A DNA stretch of 48,363 nucleotides from an uncultured Prevotella sp. GTDB lineage: Bacteria; Bacteroidota; Bacteroidia; Bacteroidales; Bacteroidaceae. Under the pieces are notes generated by a model that was not told the DNA's origin, made no database searches, and saw nothing but the letters and a program-made list of their open reading frames with translations. Positions 6,466 through 48,260 of the stretch are shown piece after piece (within the stretch, counting starts at the first letter, position 1; each line of letters opens with the position of its first letter). Location: positions 1 through 48,363 of the forward strand of contig ONYZ01000032.1 of the NCBI GenBank assembly GCA_900322175.1, given 5' to 3'. The translations under genes were made by a program, and so were the position numbers.

Positions 6466-7476
6466 ATGGATCTATTAAGTTCAATTGTAGCGCGTGCTAA
6501 GAGTAACAAGCAGCGCATCGTACTCCCTGAGGCAGAAGAGGAGCGTACACTCTGTGCAGCCGATAAGGCTCTGGCCGACGAGCTTGCAGACATCATTCTG
6601 ATTGGTAATCCTGCCAAGGTTGAGGCTCTGGCTAAGGAGAAGGGACTTACCAACATAGGTAAGGCTACTCTCATCGACCCAGAGAACTATGACAAGAGCG
6701 AAGAGTTGGCTGAGAAGCTGGCTGAGATTCGCAAGAGCAAGGGTATGACTATCGAGGAGGCCCGTAAACTCGTCAAGAATCCTCTGTACCTGGGATGTAT
6801 GATCATCAAGACCGAAGGTGCTGATGGTCAGATTTCTGGTGCTCTGTCTACAACTGGCGATACACTGCGTCCAGCTCTGCAGATTATCAAGTGCCAGCCT
6901 GGTATCACTTGTGTCAGCGGTGGTTTGTTGCTTATCTCTAAGCAGAAACAGTATGGTGAGGATGGTGTGCTGGTAGTTGCCGACGTAGCTGTTACCCCAA
7001 TGCCCGATGCAAATCAGCTTTCTCAGATTGCTGTATGCACAGCTCAGATGGCCAAGGCAGTGGCTGGTTTCAAGGAGCCTCGCGTGGCTATGCTCAGCTT
7101 CTCTACTAAGGGTAGCGCTAAGCATGAGGTTGTAGATAAGGTTATAGAGGCTACTCGTCTGGCTAAGGAGCTCGACCCAACACTGAAGATCGATGGTGAG
7201 TTGCAGGCTGATGCAGCTCTGGTTCCATCAGTTGGTGCCAAGAAGGCTCCTGGTTCTGATATTGCAGGTAATGCCAACGTCCTGGTATTCCCTAACCTTG
7301 AGGTAGGAAACATCGGCTATAAGATGGTTCAGCGTCTGGGTGATGCTATTGCTATCGGTCCTGTTCTCCAGGGTATCGCACGTCCTGTAAACGACCTGTC
7401 ACGTGGTTGCTCTATTGATGATATCTACTACATGATTGCCATCACAGCTTGTCAGGCAATGGATGCAAAAAAATAA
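6466..7476 (+). CDS. pta: Phosphate acetyltransferase
   Basis: Pta interconverts acetyl-CoA and acetyl phosphate. The 336-aa protein is the short, single-domain form. Visible family motifs include RIVLPEAEEERTL near the N-terminus, GALSTTGDTLRPALQIIK, SFSTKGSAKHE, DGELQADAALVPSVGAKKAPGS split over the C-terminal half, and the NVLVFPNLEVGNIGYKMVQR signature. ackA follows after 23 nt, so the pair forms the usual acetate/ATP operon. The upstream gap holds an alternating TA tract (about 6429-6441) but no recognisable TAnnTTTG box. Strong use of GGT/GCT codons fits a highly expressed gene. Confidence 0.96.
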   Translation: MDLLSSIVARAKSNKQRIVLPEAEEERTLCAADKALADELADIILIGNPAKVEALAKEKGLTNIGKATLIDPENYDKSEELAEKLAEIRKSKGMTIEEARKLVKNPLYLGCMIIKTEGADGQISGALSTTGDTLRPALQIIKCQPGITCVSGGLLLISKQKQYGEDGVLVVADVAVTPMPDANQLSQIAVCTAQMAKAVAGFKEPRVAMLSFSTKGSAKHEVVDKVIEATRLAKELDPTLKIDGELQADAALVPSVGAKKAPGSDIAGNANVLVFPNLEVGNIGYKMVQRLGDAIAIGPVLQGIARPVNDLSRGCSIDDIYYMIAITACQAMDAKK

Positions 7477-7499
7477 TTGAGAATTAAGATTTAAGAGAT

Positions 7500-8693
7500 A
7501 TGAAGATTTTAGTATTGAATTGTGGTTCTTCGTCTATCAAGTACGCTCTGTACAATATGGACGACAAGAGTGTGATGACCAGTGGTGGTGCTGAGCGTGT
7601 TGGCTTGGACAATGCTTTTGTTAAGGTTAAGTTGGCCAATGGCGAGAAGAAGCAGATTATGCACGACATCCCCGAACATACCGAGGGCGTGAAGTTCATC
7701 TTCTCTCTTCTTACCGATCCTGAGATTGGTGTTATCAAGAGTCTCGATGAAATCGATGCTGTAGGTCATCGTATGGTGCACGGCGGCGAGAAGTTCAATA
7801 AGAGCGTTATTCTTACCGACGAAGTCCTGAAGGCCTTCGAAGAGTGCTCTGATCTGGCACCACTGCACAACCCTGCTAACTTAAAGGGTGTAAATGCTGT
7901 TAAGGAACTTATGCCTGGTCTTCCTCAGGTAGGTGTGTTCGACACAGCCTTCCATCAGACCATGCCTGCTAAGGCTTATATGTATGCTGTTCCTTACGAG
8001 TTGTACGAGAAGTACGGTGTACGTCGCTATGGTTTCCACGGCACCTCTCACCGTTATGTATCAGCTCGTGCCTGCGAGTTCCTGGGTATTAAGCCCGAGG
8101 GTACTAAGATGATTACCTGTCACATCGGTAATGGTGGTTCTATCGCTGCTGTTGTGGATGGCAAGTGTATCGACACCTCAATGGGTCTTACTCCTCTAGA
8201 GGGTCTGGTAATGGGCACACGTGCTGGCGATATCGACGGTGGTGCCGTTACTTTCCTTGAGAAGAAGCTCGGTCTCGATGCCGACGGTATGAGCAACCTG
8301 CTCAATAAGAAGAGTGGTGTAGCTGGTATCACTGGTGGAAGCTCAGATATGCGCGACGTAGAGAACGCTGCTAAGGCTGGCGATGATAAGGCTGTGCTGG
8401 CTCAGCAGATGTACTTCTATCGTATCAAGAAGTATATCGGTGCTTATGCTGCCGCTATGGGTGGTGTAGATGTGATTGTGTTCACTGCCGGTGTAGGCGA
8501 GAATCAGATTTCTATGCGTTCTGCAGTATGCGAAGGCTTGGAGTTCCTTGGTGTTAAGTTCGACGAGGAGCGCAACAAGGTTCGTGGCGAAGAGGCTATC
8601 ATTTCTGCCGATGACTCTAAGGTTAAGGTAGTTGTTATCCCAACCGATGAGGAGCTGATGATTGCAACAGACACTATGAATCTGCTGAAGTAA
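7500..8693 (+). CDS. ackA: Acetate kinase
   Basis: AckA converts acetyl phosphate and ADP to acetate and ATP, the main energy-yielding end step in acetate-producing anaerobes. The N-terminal LVLNCGSSSIKYALY loop, the HRMVHGG motif, VFDTAFHQTMP, RYGFHGTSHRYV, HIGNGGSIAA, and DTSMGLTPLEGLVMGTRAGD (the kinase signature) are all present in order, and VFTAGVGENQ lies near the C-terminus. The 397-aa length is standard. It follows pta by 23 nt. A hairpin in the 3' end of the convergent gene (8721-8743) can end the transcript. Confidence 0.97.
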   Translation: MKILVLNCGSSSIKYALYNMDDKSVMTSGGAERVGLDNAFVKVKLANGEKKQIMHDIPEHTEGVKFIFSLLTDPEIGVIKSLDEIDAVGHRMVHGGEKFNKSVILTDEVLKAFEECSDLAPLHNPANLKGVNAVKELMPGLPQVGVFDTAFHQTMPAKAYMYAVPYELYEKYGVRRYGFHGTSHRYVSARACEFLGIKPEGTKMITCHIGNGGSIAAVVDGKCIDTSMGLTPLEGLVMGTRAGDIDGGAVTFLEKKLGLDADGMSNLLNKKSGVAGITGGSSDMRDVENAAKAGDDKAVLAQQMYFYRIKKYIGAYAAAMGGVDVIVFTAGVGENQISMRSAVCEGLEFLGVKFDEERNKVRGEEAIISADDSKVKVVVIPTDEELMIATDTMNLLK

Positions 8694-38676: not shown

Positions 38677-38715
38677 AAAATGCCTCGCATCGATGTCGAT
38701 GCGGGGCATTTTTCT
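38677..38715. terminator. Strong bidirectional terminator
   Basis: AATGCCTCGCATCGA (38679-38693) pairs along its length with TCGATGCGGGGCATT (38696-38710), with one T-G pair. A-rich and T-rich flanks lie on either side, so it can stop both the esterase transcript and the minus-strand module. Confidence 0.8.
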
Positions 38716-38734: not shown

Positions 38735-40918
38735 CTAGCATTTCTGCCAGAGGTTGGTGTCAATCTTTACGATTTTCTCTTCCTTCACCCAACGGCAGAT
38801 AATGGTCTTCACTACTGCCGATTCGCCGTTTGCCAGACGGAGATTTACCAGATCTTCCTTGGAGAATTCTTTTGGCAGAGCATCCAGATAGCGGATGTTA
38901 CCCTTAGAGGCCTGAGCACTGATTGCTCCATCACGCAGCGCATCAATCTTGTTGCCATAAATCAGCAACTGATAATGAAAACAGCGCTCAGCATACCAGA
39001 CGGCAAACTTGATGGCTCGCTCAGTTTCCTGTCGACCTTCTAGCAGATAAGCGATGATGCCGGCACGGAAACCATTGAGCGCAGCTCGACGACGAAGCAC
39101 ATCGACAGAATATCGAAGTGTCTGCAGATACTCCTGACGCTTGCCTTCATCCCACTCTTCGATGGCCTGATTGATAAGAGGCAGATTCACCTCGCCCTCC
39201 TCGTCCATCAAGCAGAGGCACTGGCGCTTCACTTTTTCTTCCTCTTCCTTGGTCCAGGCCTTAAACTTTGGCATCTTTGCACCTACCATATCAGGCAAAA
39301 GCACAGGTGTTACTCGGCTCACCAGACCACTCTCGGCATCGGCAAAGAATGCTCGACACTTGTTGGGTGTACCACACATCACCATATTATAATATAGGGT
39401 GACTTTACCTGAGAACGAATCCTTCGAAATGCGGTGCTGACCCCAAGGTTTGTTGTCGTAAGCCAGTCGGAACAGGTCGTTCTTTTCTGTCCATGCACCT
39501 CCCTTGTTGTTCTTCAGAACAGTCTCAATCTCAGGGGCATAGGTAAACAGATGCTTTCCCTTGGCATACAGAGCTCGCTCCAGAAATGCCGACACACCGA
39601 TATTGGGTTCGATGATACGGATCTGGCTACAGGGATTCTCTACCTCCTCGCCGTTTTTCTTGGCCAGCGAGTACTCGATTTCCTTCTGCCACTCCACCTC
39701 GTCCTGCTTGATGATGGGATCCATCAGCAACTCGTACTCAGCATCAACAAACGACTTACCTGTGGCCTGAGGTGCCTCGATATCCACGATAAAACTGGGC
39801 GAATTCAGCTTGCCATCGCGATACTTGGCTCTAACACTTGTGGCCAACGTGCCCAGCATAGGCATAGCAGCCATAAGTGTAGCCTCACGAAATTCCTCAG
39901 GAGCATGGTCTGACAGATCCTGAAGAATGCCAGGCAACTCCTTGTCTACAGGGGCCACAAAGGCATCGTCGTCACCATCCTGTTCAGCTTCAACTGTAGC
40001 TCCCAGAGTCGACAGCACATCCTTCATAATCGAAGGAACATCAGAAGGACGGGTGCTACCAACAGCACTCTTGATGGTAGAGATGGTCTCGTGGTCCGAC
40101 AGTCCCCAATGAGGCAGGATCGAGAAGAGTTTCTGCTCATTGAAGTCGCAGATGAAACGCATATAGCGACTCATAGTGTAGAGCGCCATATTACGTTCAC
40201 CCTCGGCAGGAGCATCACCATATCCCAACTTCAGGAGCAGAGCAGCTACGATGTTCTCATAAGGAATGCCCTTGTAATTAAGAGGTGTGGCAGATGGGTC
40301 AGCAGCTACAGGTTCACTCTTGACAACAGGCTGATTATCAACCTCATACAGTTTCTTCTGTTCCTCGGTAAGAGGCTCAAAAATTGCAGGATCGAGCAAC
40401 TTTACATACTGCTCACTTACCATAAAACAGCATCGAGCCAGGTCGGTAACGTGAGAATCGTAACTTACCCCAAGTCGAGCAGCCAGTTTCTGGATGTCCT
40501 CCTCGATGGTAGCTCCAGGAGTACGCCAGGCCCAGATGTGAGTACCGCCGCCGGCACTTTCGGCAAAGTACACGATACGGCATTCTTCGATGAGATTCTC
40601 TTCCCAAACCTTAGCCCAGAGGTCCTCAGTCAGTCCCTTTTCGTCGATATCGAGGAAGAACAGTCCTGAAGGCACAGCATCTTCGGCCTTACGGGCACCG
40701 TTGGTGAAACACTCTGCAAGAGGCAGCCATACAGGCAGTTCCTTCTTGCGACTCAGATTTTTGTTCTGCTTCACGTCTGCGAGGATTTCCTCTACGTGAT
40801 TCTCCGCCAGCAGTTGACGGTAAGCAGCCATGCTCGCCTTGCGAGGCTTGCCGCTAAATGATTCTGACATGCTAATCATAACGGCGGCAAAGGTCGCAAG
40901 GGGTTTTGCACCTTCCAA
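38735..40918 (-). CDS. Primase/helicase-like protein (BT4734-like N-terminal plus DUF3987-like)
   Basis: The N-terminal part (about 20-170) has SGLFFLDIDEKGL with Asp90/Asp92 and FAESAGGGTHIWAWR, which resembles the BT4734-like/VirE_N domain of Bacteroidota mobile elements and the metal site of archaeo-eukaryotic primases. A DUF3987-type ATPase follows, with EAPQATGKSF (Lys388) as a P-loop-like motif and MCGTPNKCRAFF downstream. It probably primes or unwinds DNA during replication of a mobile element. In-frame ATGs at 40879 and 40870 are alternative starts. It lies 11 nt after the 487-aa gene, with the HU-like gene further upstream. No relaxase or integrase is seen beside it. Confidence 0.75.
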   Translation of the reverse strand: MEGAKPLATFAAVMISMSESFSGKPRKASMAAYRQLLAENHVEEILADVKQNKNLSRKKELPVWLPLAECFTNGARKAEDAVPSGLFFLDIDEKGLTEDLWAKVWEENLIEECRIVYFAESAGGGTHIWAWRTPGATIEEDIQKLAARLGVSYDSHVTDLARCCFMVSEQYVKLLDPAIFEPLTEEQKKLYEVDNQPVVKSEPVAADPSATPLNYKGIPYENIVAALLLKLGYGDAPAEGERNMALYTMSRYMRFICDFNEQKLFSILPHWGLSDHETISTIKSAVGSTRPSDVPSIMKDVLSTLGATVEAEQDGDDDAFVAPVDKELPGILQDLSDHAPEEFREATLMAAMPMLGTLATSVRAKYRDGKLNSPSFIVDIEAPQATGKSFVDAEYELLMDPIIKQDEVEWQKEIEYSLAKKNGEEVENPCSQIRIIEPNIGVSAFLERALYAKGKHLFTYAPEIETVLKNNKGGAWTEKNDLFRLAYDNKPWGQHRISKDSFSGKVTLYYNMVMCGTPNKCRAFFADAESGLVSRVTPVLLPDMVGAKMPKFKAWTKEEEEKVKRQCLCLMDEEGEVNLPLINQAIEEWDEGKRQEYLQTLRYSVDVLRRRAALNGFRAGIIAYLLEGRQETERAIKFAVWYAERCFHYQLLIYGNKIDALRDGAISAQASKGNIRYLDALPKEFSKEDLVNLRLANGESAVVKTIICRWVKEEKIVKIDTNLWQKC

Positions 40919-40929
40919 ATGGGATAATT

Positions 40930-42393
40930 CTAGCTAATAGTGCAATTATTCTGAGAGTGAGCTAACTGACTGTATTTCTGATAGATAGCTCTAAAAGTAT
41001 TTTTCAAATCGTCGTCATCATCACTCATTCCTTCCTGGATATTCTTCCTGAAAGTGTCAACATATTGCATCTCTGTCAGCTTCAGAGCCAAATCACGGTC
41101 GGAATGGGCACCAAACACTGCACTTTTTTTCATTTCTCCCACCAAATGGCAGAAAAAGCGTGCAGTATAGAGATTATTGTGCGGACTCTTACGAGTTACC
41201 TTCAGGTGGGCAAAGATATTTTCGTCCTCAATCAGCTCCTTCCACATATTTATATAATGGGGCAACCACCTATCGTCCAGCAGATTTGTGAGTTTATTGG
41301 CAGCATTCATTACAGCTTCGCCCACCCTCTGCACATCGTTGTTCACCAACTGCTCATTGCCAAACTTGGTGGTTGGATCCAGTTCGCGGGCTACCTCGCA
41401 AAGCGATGCAAGGTGGAAGATGAAATAGCGAATTTGCTCGTCGCTAAGATGCGCCTCCAGAAAATCCTCATCGAATGCCTCGCTATCGGTAGTCCATTTG
41501 GCAAACAGGCCACAAGGCATCTGTCCCAGTATCTGTCGCTCTTTGCTACGTTCGGCAGTCATCACATCCTGCCACGAACTGCTGTCGTTAACCACCCGCA
41601 GGGTATCGCGGCGCTCTTTCCAATAGTGTTCCCAACCATCACTCTTGCGCGCGCGTGTGAGTACCTTATTAAACAGAGAAGCCATCACCTTGCTGTTATT
41701 GCGATTCTTCTGAAAAAGGTTTACTGCAACTTCTGGAATCATCATCAGCACTATCAGTAGTATCACCATACCCTGCAGGCCCTCGCTCATCGTACTGGCT
41801 ATACAGTCCATAGCACTACGGATGGACTTAAGATAGTTATCTGTTTCTTCTTTATCAGAATCACCACTCTCAGCATTTGCACTCTGCATTATAGGAGTCA
41901 GCATCATCAGGTCGTTAGGATCCATATACTGTGCACAAAGCGATAGTAGACGTCCTATGGGCGAGGCCTGTTTCTTTATGGCCTCCTGCTTCTCGGCAGG
42001 CAAAGCCATTTGCTGGGCCATCATCTGTTCGAGCAGATCGAAAAACGACGTCCGTTCAGGCAAGCTTTCGTCACTCAGCAACCTGCCAGCAAGCGTCATT
42101 ACCGATTGGCGCATCCTGGGATTGCTCACCGTCTGACTAATACGTTCGATATATTCCGAAAACAGAAACGTACACGGCATCCTATTCAACTCAAGCAATG
42201 CCGTTATCACACTCTGCAAACGCACCATGGCAGCATATAGTTCAGCCTCTACAAATGTATCCATACCTTCGGCCAACTCCTGTACCAACCCCTCAAGTCG
42301 ATCGGCAGCCACCTGCCAGTGACGACACACCTGAGCAGTAAGTTGCTCTGTGCGTTCATCGTCAACTATCTTTCTTATTTCTTCTGCAGTCAT
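40930..42393 (-). CDS. Unrecognised 487-aa protein with one membrane segment
   Basis: I do not recognise this family. It is almost all helical, with long amphipathic stretches, and a single hydrophobic helix at about residues 205-227 (GLQGMVILLIVLMMIPEVAV) that splits it into two halves. The C-terminal half has many conserved-looking Trp/Asp/Glu residues (SSSWQDVMTAERSKERQILG) and ends in an acidic run (SDDDDDL). There are no P-loop, DNA-binding or nuclease motifs. It sits between the HU-like gene and the primase-like gene, and a 32-bp palindrome lies 20 nt upstream of its start. A link between the replication module and the membrane is one possibility. Confidence 0.65.
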   Translation of the reverse strand: MTAEEIRKIVDDERTEQLTAQVCRHWQVAADRLEGLVQELAEGMDTFVEAELYAAMVRLQSVITALLELNRMPCTFLFSEYIERISQTVSNPRMRQSVMTLAGRLLSDESLPERTSFFDLLEQMMAQQMALPAEKQEAIKKQASPIGRLLSLCAQYMDPNDLMMLTPIMQSANAESGDSDKEETDNYLKSIRSAMDCIASTMSEGLQGMVILLIVLMMIPEVAVNLFQKNRNNSKVMASLFNKVLTRARKSDGWEHYWKERRDTLRVVNDSSSWQDVMTAERSKERQILGQMPCGLFAKWTTDSEAFDEDFLEAHLSDEQIRYFIFHLASLCEVARELDPTTKFGNEQLVNNDVQRVGEAVMNAANKLTNLLDDRWLPHYINMWKELIEDENIFAHLKVTRKSPHNNLYTARFFCHLVGEMKKSAVFGAHSDRDLALKLTEMQYVDTFRKNIQEGMSDDDDDLKNTFRAIYQKYSQLAHSQNNCTIS

Positions 42394-42413
42394 ATTCTTT
42401 TTTTCTTGCCGTT

Positions 42414-42445
42414 GGTTACATGGTTACAGCTGTAACCATGTAACC
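42414..42445. repeat. 32-bp perfect palindrome built from GGTTAC half-sites
   Basis: Two direct GGTTACAT units (the second ending GGTTACAG) are followed by their exact inverted copies, CTGTAACC and ATGTAACC, giving four GGTTAC half-sites at 8-bp spacing. It sits 20 nt upstream of the 487-aa gene and could be an operator, a replication-protein site or a hairpin. Confidence 0.9.
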
Positions 42446-42535
42446 TCTACGTTGTTATTATTGTTTCAATCCTATTATAACTTATTGATTTACAATATAT
42501 TATACACTATGTTATCATACTTCCATCCCTTCTGC

Positions 42536-42565
42536 GGTTACATGGTTACAGCTGTAACCGTAACC
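42536..42565. repeat. Second GGTTAC palindrome, two bases shorter
   Basis: It repeats the first palindrome, including the 16-bp core GGTTACAGCTGTAACC (42544-42559), but lacks the AT spacer in its right arm, so the last two half-sites abut. Core centres are 122 bp apart. Confidence 0.88.
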
Positions 42566-42600
42566 ACGTTTGAGCCTCGCGCCTAATAATTAACTTATGC

Positions 42601-42732
42601 AAGTGCAATCCCTAACCCTAGCAGGTACAAAACCTAGGGTAAATAGGTACAATACCCCTGCTGCAATATCATTTGCCTATACCCAAACGACTGTGCGCCT
42701 ATACGCAAACAGCTGTTCGACTATACCCGATT
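42601..42732. repeat. 22-bp-period repeats, iteron-like
   Basis: Six windows share a 22-bp register. The first three start AAGTGCAATCCC (42601), AGGTACAAAACC (42623) and AGGTACAATACC (42645). The next three carry CCTATACCCAAAC (from 42676), CCTATACGCAAAC (from 42698) and ACTATACCCGATT (from 42720). A 22-bp period is two helical turns, as in plasmid iterons. They end about 31 bp before the 3' end of the HU-like gene. Confidence 0.7.
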
Positions 42733-42763
42733 TCAATCGCACTCCAGCATCATAGTCATCTAT

Positions 42764-43384
42764 TTATATCTCTGTATAGATGTGTTCCTTGCCACGTGGC
42801 GTCATCAGCAGTTTAGGATTGTCGCCCTTGGTCCACTCCTGCAGCTGTTTGCGTGCAGAGTAGAGCGTAAGTCCTGTGATTCGGGCAAACATGCCAGCAG
42901 TGATAAAGCCGCTATGCTGCAAACAGTCGCGCATCATCTGTTCCAACTTCTGCTTATCGGCCAGAATCTCCTGGGTGTCAGGATTATGATAGCGGCGAAA
43001 TCCGTCGAGCCACTTCATTATCTCATGCTCCCACATCTTACCAGGATTATACTCCACTCCCTCAAGTCTTACGTCGCGATCCTTCACCTGGTCGGCATCA
43101 GTCACCTGCTTGGCCAGCGACAGCTTTGGAGCAAACGACCCTATTGGCGTATCGATACGATACCCCTCGGCCAGGAATCTGCCCGCAGCCCGCACAAAGG
43201 CATCCATCGCCCTACTCAGTTCGCCATATCGCAGGTAGTTCATCCGCTCGCAATACTCCTCGAGCTGCTTCATATTCAACTTCATCCCGCTCTTTGGCCG
43301 AACATATACAATATTACGTCCATCCTCACCCTTCACCGGAGTAGGATGAACCTCATACCACATTCCACTATTCTTTCTAGGCAT
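42764..43384 (-). CDS. HU-like DNA-binding protein with extra C-terminal domain
   Basis: The first 125 residues resemble the HU/IHF-like (HU-HIG) proteins of Bacteroidota (MNYLRYGELSRAMDAFVRAA, then YRIDTPIGSFAPKL). A C-terminal part (about 150-206; SGFITAGMFARITGLTLYSA, then LMTPRGKEHIYTEI) looks like a winged-helix domain. I start it at the ATG at 43384 because the longer frame reads hydrophobic residues from the promoter region. The -33/-7 promoter is at 43413-43444. It is first in the module with the 487-aa protein and the primase-like protein. It may bend or bind the repeats that lie just downstream of its stop. Confidence 0.78.
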   Translation of the reverse strand: MPRKNSGMWYEVHPTPVKGEDGRNIVYVRPKSGMKLNMKQLEEYCERMNYLRYGELSRAMDAFVRAAGRFLAEGYRIDTPIGSFAPKLSLAKQVTDADQVKDRDVRLEGVEYNPGKMWEHEIMKWLDGFRRYHNPDTQEILADKQKLEQMMRDCLQHSGFITAGMFARITGLTLYSARKQLQEWTKGDNPKLLMTPRGKEHIYTEI

Positions 43385-43412
43385 ACACTTTAGTTCCTTA
43401 CGTAATTGCCTG

Positions 43413-43444
43413 CAAAGATACAAAAAAATCTGCAAATCAACAAA
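43413..43444 (-). promoter_or_regulatory. Promoter of the HU-like gene
   Basis: On the minus strand TTTG (43441-43444), a 20-nt spacer and TATCTTTG (43413-43420) match both Bacteroidota elements, 28 nt before the start codon. Confidence 0.78.
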
Positions 43445-47952: not shown

Positions 47953-48260
47953 TGTGGGGTACATCGCGGGGCTTTCCCATGTGCAGGGAGCGCGATGTGG
48001 GGCACATCGAGGGCTTTCCCACGTGCATGGCCTGCGATGTGGGGCACATCGAGGGCTTTCCCAGGTGCAGGGAGCGCGATGTGGGGTACATCGAGGGCTT
48101 TCCCACGTGCAGGGAGCGCGATGTGGGGCACATCGAGGGCATTCCCACGTGCAGGGAGCGCGATGTGGGGCACATCGAGGGCATTCCCACGTGCAGGGAG
48201 CGCGATGTGGGGCGCATCGAGGGCATTCCCATACGCAGGGAGCGCGATGTGGGGCACATG
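47953..48260. repeat. Tandem array of seven 42-bp units plus a partial eighth
   Basis: Units begin TGTGGGG at 47953, 47996, 48038, 48080, 48122, 48164, 48206 and 48248, so the period is 42 bp (43 in the first). Each has the inverted repeat CGATGTG-GGG-CACATCG across the unit border and a TCCC-ACGTGCA-GGGA hairpin. Because 42 is a multiple of three and no stops occur, the array is open in several frames on both strands, giving 14-residue peptide repeats. I see no signal peptide or start typical of a gene, so I treat it as a structured noncoding repeat, but a repeat protein cannot be excluded. Confidence 0.88.

Follow-up and report, generated by a model that had tools for sequence, protein, structure and literature searches.

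Replication proteins that combine a primase-polymerase, a helicase and a helix-turn-helix (HTH) in one chain are exemplified by the plasmid protein of the pRN1 ORF904 type, and P1 parS and similar sites carry two repeat sets around an IHF-bent site at a fixed distance. Here we describe a chromosomal three-gene unit from an uncultured Prevotella sp. (contig ONYZ01000032.1 of assembly GCA_900322175.1; the whole 48,363-nucleotide stretch is hereafter called the window), which encodes an HU-HIG family DNA-binding protein, an orphan protein of 487 residues (p487) and a primase-helicase, and which contains a cis module with two palindromes. The primase-helicase has the one-chain layout of ORF904, differing from it in its chromosomal location, in the family of its ATPase and in being accompanied by p487, for which no plasmid relative was found. 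The paired-site layout is similar to that of parS, but the presumed binder is here primase-like instead of ParB and the unit holds no ParA. Comparison between copies establishes the conserved unit, its module, two palindrome classes, a primase residue that matches them and module copies that stand alone, and every step from sequence to function taken below is comparative. We judge the chances to be evenly balanced that the unit initiates the replication of a chromosomal element that has no integrase and is probably mobile, with the modules as its non-autonomous copies, because a partition-like or regulatory role would use the same sites.

In the available portion of PMC5862659, DUF3987 is treated as a predicted helicase, the C-terminal winged helix of PrimPol proteins is suggested to serve in origin recognition, and the BT4734-like family is listed as associated with no clade. 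The PrimQH and PolpTN2-like AEP PrimPol-helicases of that account likewise combine a PrimPol-type domain, a DUF3987-type P-loop ATPase and a C-terminal HTH, and the same portion of it names no site for such Bacteroidetes proteins. Unlike the systems portrayed there, the window unit combines a specific paired palindrome with a residue that matches it, includes p487 and an HU-HIG partner, and has solo sites; unlike the mobile-element systems among them, it has no plasmid, integrase or virion genes. Origin recognition by the winged helix of a PrimPol-helicase has thus far been a suggestion (PMC5862659); in the present unit a site and a residue switch together, and the comparison points to the particular site, residue and base involved. 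Literature searches gave, in the available portions of the papers returned, no recognised description of the three-gene unit or of the module; one paper returned, PMC10434189, mentions both DUF3987 and HU family DNA-binding.

The three genes lie on the minus strand in the order HU-HIG (42764..43384, 206 aa), p487 (40930..42393) and primase-helicase (38735..40918, with an uncertain TTG start), with gaps of 370 bp between HU and p487 and of 11 bp between p487 and the primase. An earlier note on this DNA, made from its letters alone, had placed the same three ORFs (open reading frames) at these positions and had seen palindromes and 22-bp repeats between the first two of them, all of which proved to be real (42414-42445, 42536-42565 and 42672-42728). 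As delimited by comparing unit-linked and solo copies, they belong to a cis module of about 326 bp (42414..42739) composed of two palindromes, a spacer, a 22-bp-phased region and iterons. Its edges are the outer hexamer of palindrome 1 and a point just past the last iteron, the latter shifting by some 15-60 bp from copy to copy. Palindrome 1 (GGTTACATGGTTACAGCTGTAACCATGTAACC, 42414..42445), a perfect 32-bp palindrome, is separated from the p487 start by 20 bp, and palindrome 2 (GGTTACATGGTTACAGCTGTAACCGTAACC, 42536..42565) lies 122 bp from palindrome 1, centre to centre; GGTTAC half-sites make up both of them. Repeat comparison showed about 2.5 copies of the 22-bp iterons (TTTGCCTATACCCAAACG..., 42672..42728), and in 14 related units the self-match at lag 22 averages 0.49, roughly double the background; it is 0.35 at lag 44 and 0.21-0.30 at the remaining lags, tested as far as 43.

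In order to compare the unit between genomes we used a same-genus set of 299 genomes, drawn evenly from a larger genus and made up mostly of fragmented assemblies, many of them incomplete; the window itself is the whole of contig C36 in a 130-contig, 83%-complete assembly. Twenty loci with p487 were read (the window, L002, L149, L226, L229, L233, L237, L241, L252, L257, L332-L340 and the diverged L312), 19 of them with full-length p487 and one with the diverged form, and loci from related species are not independent of each other. The 18 modules linked to units can be sorted into two classes by the fourth base of their hexamers, which with hardly any exception are all GGTTAC in one class and all GGTCAC in the other; only L226 departs from this, having 7 T hexamers and 1 C hexamer, and one off-pattern palindrome each of L241 and L257 was not counted in the class call. 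FastTree trees of p487, HU and the primase intermingle the two classes, and on the midpoint-rooted primase tree, with node supports not weighed, class requires six Fitch changes.

Across the three proteins, the only alignment column that separates the two classes is primase residue 708 (codon 38795..38797, minus strand, Cys in the window). It is Cys in all nine GGTTAC units and Tyr in all eight GGTCAC units, L312 included, a count without L257, whose contig lacks the primase C-terminus, and without the module-less L339 and L340. No separating column was found in p487 (10 sequences of the GGTTAC and 7 of the GGTCAC class) or in HU (10 and 5, respectively). Residue 708 is located inside the stretch VVKTII[C/Y]RWVKE, in which its neighbours are nearly invariant and which looks by eye like an HTH with a wing; it forms part of a longer HTH-like pattern at the C-terminus, FTKEDL..NNESPVVKTII[C/Y]RWVKEGL, also recognised by eye. 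A two-state separating column arose in 3 of 10000 label shuffles, which ignore relatedness by descent. Because residue 708 alone separates the two classes, and does so within the HTH-like C-terminus, the primase probably reads the palindromes, and this DNA-reading step is well supported by the comparison.

The sister units L149 and L332, which are of opposite class, have primases that differ at 6 of 732 residues and HU proteins that differ at 4 (start-codon choice aside), with all eight hexamers different; one of the primase differences is Cys/Tyr 708. In p487, 78 of the 80 differences between them fall within roughly residues 48-242. The module and this part of p487 appear to have been swapped by recombination and the remainder not, and the matching residue may have come from mutation or a very short conversion. 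At sites away from the unit, genomes with Cys708 hold 11 GGTTAC and 3 GGTCAC sites and those with Tyr708 hold 2 and 6, respectively (Fisher p 0.026), in a tally made by hand that excludes G677, which has no C-terminus, and G609, which has no module. This match to the resident residue lends modest support to the reading of palindromes by the primase.

The distance between palindromes is held at 119-123 bp, centre to centre, in 18 of 19 unit-linked pairs (17 units) and in 20 of 22 pairs elsewhere (28 loci given, 6 of them without a second palindrome in range; L228, L242 and L343 in this set are unit remnants), while the spacer sequence itself varies between copies. In the window the spacer contains a site, TAACTTATTGATT (42478..42490), that resembles what we take to be the IHF consensus; a scan with that consensus found it in 11 of 19 unit-linked spacers (0.31 expected) and in 9 of 22 others (0.35 expected). 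Two sites held at a constant distance around an IHF-like site are what a chromosome site-recognition or partition-like system would use, in which the primase, with HU and a perhaps membrane-bound p487, would tether or organise DNA without replicating the modules. The partial match of away-sites to the resident class and the conserved hydrophobic segment of p487 described below would suit it too. We nevertheless regard such a system as rather unlikely, given that there are few sites per genome, that tethering does not call for a primase domain whose motifs I and II are intact, that the unit as read by eye consists of three ORFs only and so includes no ParA, and that its distribution is patchy (16 of 299 genomes).

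Outside the window, a profile of p487 matched 21 of the 299 genus genomes, with full-length protein in those same 16. A peptide pattern run over 84,980 species genomes gave one 96%-identical relative, at L002, and BLAST against 200 other genomes of the family gave none. The primase adjoins p487 in all 20 loci (the contig of L257 holds the primase start only); it is split in L237, L252 and L339, which may reflect decay or sequencing error. The HU gene adjoins this pair in 16 of the 20, lying upstream in 14 and downstream of the primase in L237 and L340, and is the least constant part of the unit, and the module is found at the 5' end of p487 in 18. The proposal that the genes form a compact unit was thus borne out by the recurrence of genes and repeats together at different chromosomal places: the genes are regular neighbours, and p487 matched no housekeeping family. 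L237 and L340, whose gene order is unlike that of the other units, both belong to G542, which carries two p487-primase-HU copies in two places; these are 86-93% alike, and one lacks a module.

In G233, a same-genus genome in one contig, all three genes recur next to different neighbours, and the DNA similarity between G233 and the window extends from 38741 to 43388, gene end to gene end, except for a gap inside p487. Between units in general, pairwise DNA similarity stops no more than about 60 bp from HU and primase. Flanking genes, named here and below by eye unless a match to a profile hidden Markov model (HMM) is stated, differ between most loci. The window and L002 represent one common site, and L229 and the remnants L228 and L242 another, behind an Hsp20-like gene. 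In L149 and L334, from two species, the unit lies next to an etfB-like gene start, oppositely oriented in the two loci, and the etfB start is a possible preferred site of the unit. The ORF list shows no integrase or transposase inside the unit, and the earlier remark that no integrase is in view holds for the ORF list of 33.6-48.4 kb, checked by reading with no HMM search. A near relative of the region is present in the uncultured Prevotella assembly RUG126. Two observations concern variant units: in G414, the p487 of L312 is strongly diverged, and the palindromes of L312 and L314 are spaced at 279 and 282 bp, over double what is usual; in G422, L335 has four tandem palindromes at 119-123 bp spacing (7150-7514) and no HU gene was found there.

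Exact-pattern searches found the GGTTAC palindrome in 22 of 299 genus genomes and the GGTCAC form in 28, with 6 having both, which by hand count from two tables makes 44; the reversed pattern, used as control, gave 0 matches in every row for both forms. All 16 genomes with full-length p487 carry an exact palindrome, against 44 of 299 overall (hypergeometric 3e-15). In viral contigs, scanned for the GGTTAC form only, the palindrome was absent. In the window's own 3.37-Mb assembly the pattern occurs in the window and at one other place (reversed control 0), and this second site, on contig C90, is a whole module between endonuclease-like and TonB-type genes with no match to the three unit HMMs in the 19 kb retrieved.

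Such solo modules are short, dispersed and intergenic, their position relative to genes varies as judged by eye, and some sites are a palindrome alone. Of 49 loci that carry a module or palindrome away from units, 45 gave no match to the HMMs of primase, HU or p487. The idea that solo modules are decayed units was rejected for most of them, with only 4 of the 49 matching any unit HMM: L228 (primase end and part of HU), L242 (primase end), L343, which retains only the start of p487, and L258, where an HU-family gene lies about 5 kb from the palindrome site. By eye, L225 and L227 retain a few bases of the HU end. Some copies are nearly identical within a genome: in G528, L255 and L256 are 99% identical over 323 bp, L256 being without palindrome 1, and L255 and L253 are 98% identical over 322 bp, of which the module accounts for only about half; in G656, solo L225 and unit L226 are 94% identical over 373 bp, slightly past the module on both sides. 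Near the solo sites L253-L256 of G528, further repeated stretches besides the module recur.

These solo copies bear on two other explanations. Were the palindromes only the operator of p487 and the primase, with the primase C-terminus as repressor and the solos as relics or a small regulon, palindrome 1 would be expected close to the p487 start, where it is, and the HTH-like C-terminus with its class-matching residue would be the reader. A module of about 326 bp with 22-bp iterons that occurs gene-less, at varied positions relative to genes, is more than such autoregulation asks for, and L339 and L340 retain the genes without the module; we consider autoregulation alone unlikely. The modules could also be a dispersed repeat like a miniature inverted-repeat transposable element (MITE), moved by an unrelated transposase, one copy having been captured by the unit as its promoter region. 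Short, intergenic and sometimes nearly identical solo copies, and the 28 of 44 palindrome genomes that lack full-length p487, are in line with this. We think it quite unlikely, seeing that every genome with full-length p487 carries the palindrome, that the class tracks primase residue 708, and that neither terminal inverted repeats nor target duplications were seen. BrickBuilt MITEs of Porphyromonas gingivalis have IS5-like terminal inverted repeats and target duplications, according to the available portion of PMC4596501. They are like the module in being short, intergenic, dispersed elements of Bacteroidetes with tandem repeats, of 23 nt instead of 22; the module differs by its linked gene unit and by its edges, where neither feature was seen.

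A repeated DNA signal that changes along with one residue of the unit's own primase, and that is also found by itself elsewhere in the genomes, suggests a small, little-known, perhaps mobile replication system. A replication-type role, which had been proposed from the window alone, agrees with the PrimPol, ATPase and HTH parts of the primase and with the way in which its residue 708 follows the palindromes. We infer the following steps. The primase-helicase would bind the paired palindromes via its C-terminal HTH, residue 708 reading the fourth base of the GGTYAC hexamer, and HU-HIG or host IHF/HU would probably bend the 121-bp spacer and bring the two palindromes into one complex beside the iterons. 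The P-loop domain and the PrimPol domain would then open the DNA near the iterons and prime, with p487 as a constant and perhaps membrane-bound partner of the primase whose C-terminal (CD) domain is the part common to other primase cassettes, and gene-less modules would be recognised in trans and act as non-autonomous derivatives. Mobility of unit and module is likely on the evidence of the copies and their positions, neither empty sites nor target duplications nor terminal inverted repeats having been found; if the unit does spread solo modules, this would be mobility without a known recombinase. A more far-reaching version, tentative and in our view rather doubtful, is that of an element class without integrase or transposase in which a PrimPol-helicase reads the module by a simple residue-base code, starts synthesis there and spreads unit and modules, with p487 as its membrane-linked partner.

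Several observations tell against a replication-initiation role in a mobile element, or against the reading step on which it builds. As for the genes, HU was not found in 4 of the 20 loci (L334, L335, L339 and L312), and there are the module-less copies L339 (Tyr) and L340 (His). The distant p487 matches G427, G645 and G679 (3 of the 21) have no exact palindrome; among their loci, L342 has no primase beside p487, and the contig of L341 ends soon after p487. As for the palindromes, 28 of 44 genomes have them without full-length p487, though among those G414 has the diverged unit L312 and G592 a p487 fragment. As for residue 708, a separating column of any number of states appeared in 132 of 3000 shuffles, and in 329 of 5000 for the first 16 sequences, again with descent ignored; adding G609 (Tyr, no module, one GGTTAC site) to the away-site tally raises p to 0.077; and three nucleotide differences between L149 and L332 cluster at codons 710-711, which makes a small conversion tract possible. 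As for mobility, inspection by eye of the edges of 25 copies revealed neither terminal inverted repeats nor target duplications (29 loci were given, of which L234, L235, L239 and L243 yielded no right edge), and no empty sites were found. The stretch common to L255 and L253, about half of which is not module, indicates that larger duplications also occur, and chromosome rearrangement or such larger duplications could lie behind part of the place changes.

The primase, described as BT4734/DUF3987-type in the earlier note, has an AEP-like N-terminus, a DUF3987-type P-loop ATPase and the C-terminal HTH-like segment, and misses both Pfam gathering scores, with 25.1 bits against 27 for DUF3987 (PF13148) and 12.5 bits, well under the required 22.4, for BT4734_N (PF08800). 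Its relatives at L060 and L072 pass the PF13148 cut-off (39.3 and 47.9, respectively), and the other cassette in the window's genome scores 20.0 against PF08800. The available portion of PMC5862659 defines the AEP motifs as hhhDhD/E (I), sxH (II) and hD/E (III). In all 15 primases compared, motif I (LFFLDID) has invariant D90 and D92, motif II (GGGTHIW) has invariant G125, T126 and H127, and Walker A (APQATGKS) is invariant; for motif III there is an invariant candidate, S168-E169. The primase C-terminus gave no meaningful match to PDB sequences (four chance hits, E 0.37-0.72), and primase relatives, sought in viral contigs only, were not found there. The HU protein is assigned to HU-HIG (PF18291) by 49.2 bits (E 6.7e-13), above the gathering cut-off of 26.2.

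The 487-residue protein, described from the start as unrecognised, indeed matched none of the families in Pfam, NCBIfam, PHROGs and PADLOC at E<=1, and searches with the whole protein and with pieces against Pfam, and against NCBIfam, PHROGs, PADLOC and PDB sequences, gave no family. Weak Pfam matches of pieces (TMEM214 and Entericidin) were dismissed as chance. It consists of a faster-evolving N-terminal part and a C-terminal CD domain. The middle part, residues 95-299, tends to evolve fastest, with dN/dS (ratio of nonsynonymous to synonymous rates) below 1 in every pair and region computed. A hydrophobic segment (residues 209-227; 41713..41769, minus strand) is conserved in all 19 full-length copies, each with a Kyte-Doolittle maximum of 1.81 or more.

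The CD domain (residues 318-470; 40984..41442, minus strand) is common to p487 and stand-alone proteins of about 160 aa near other DUF3987 primases, which links the orphan protein to a domain found beside other such primases of the family. The window's genome has a second primase cassette (C56, L060), and a 157-aa ORF in it is similar to the terminal part of p487. An HMM built from eight such CD proteins, with p487 and the fusion L087 excluded, found p487 at i-E 3.9e-6 among 907 ORFs, so that the homology is not circular. A CD profile that includes p487 finds the domain in 34 of 399 family genomes, and 22 of 33 CD-labelled regions have a DUF3987-type primase within 6 kb (37 regions were fetched, the window, L002, L060 and L181 were set aside, and many contigs are short). 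In these other cassettes CD is usually a stand-alone protein of about 160 aa, often beside an ORF of about 400-500 aa, whereas p487 and a few further proteins, such as that of L087 (475 aa), carry it behind a long N-terminal part in one chain. By eye the domain faintly resembles the C-terminus of RteC (PF09357); the profile comparison was not significant, and a relationship with RteC was rejected after hhalign gave a probability below 1% in several forms and PF09357 loci had been compared. This shared domain, like the solo copies and the two palindrome classes, is absent from the earlier note.

That note had instead offered a phage satellite or defence island, and some other DUF3987 cassettes of the family do adjoin peptidase M15 or lysozyme-like genes, antirepressor-like genes and restriction-like genes (identified partly by HMM, partly by eye). 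None of those neighbours accompanies the window unit, and p487 matched nothing in PADLOC or PHROGs and has no relatives among phages, plasmids or viral contigs, which makes a satellite or defence island very improbable. CD-domain/DUF3987 cassettes such as L094, L095, L101, L163, L168 and similar ones often adjoin restriction-modification-like ORFs, and these places may be defence-rich sites. The second DUF3987 cassette in the window's genome, L060 (G000:C56, 8413-13032), comprises a CD-domain protein, small ORFs, separate ORFs for a BT4734-type N-part and a DUF3987-part, and peptidase M15, and is without the palindrome module.

The remaining features of the window are regulatory or peripheral. 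Upstream of HU a pattern scan found a single Bacteroidetes-type promoter, TTTG-N20-TATCTTTG (43413..43444, minus strand), by what we take to be the consensus of this promoter type, in keeping with the one good promoter claimed earlier. Directly past the primase stop there is a terminator-like hairpin (38678..38715), seen by eye, and most other unit copies have different hairpins at this place. A tRNA-Pro (cgg) gene lies at 227-300, and near the opposite contig end, at 47953-48259, there is a period-42 tandem repeat of 7.3 copies that is open in several frames on both strands.

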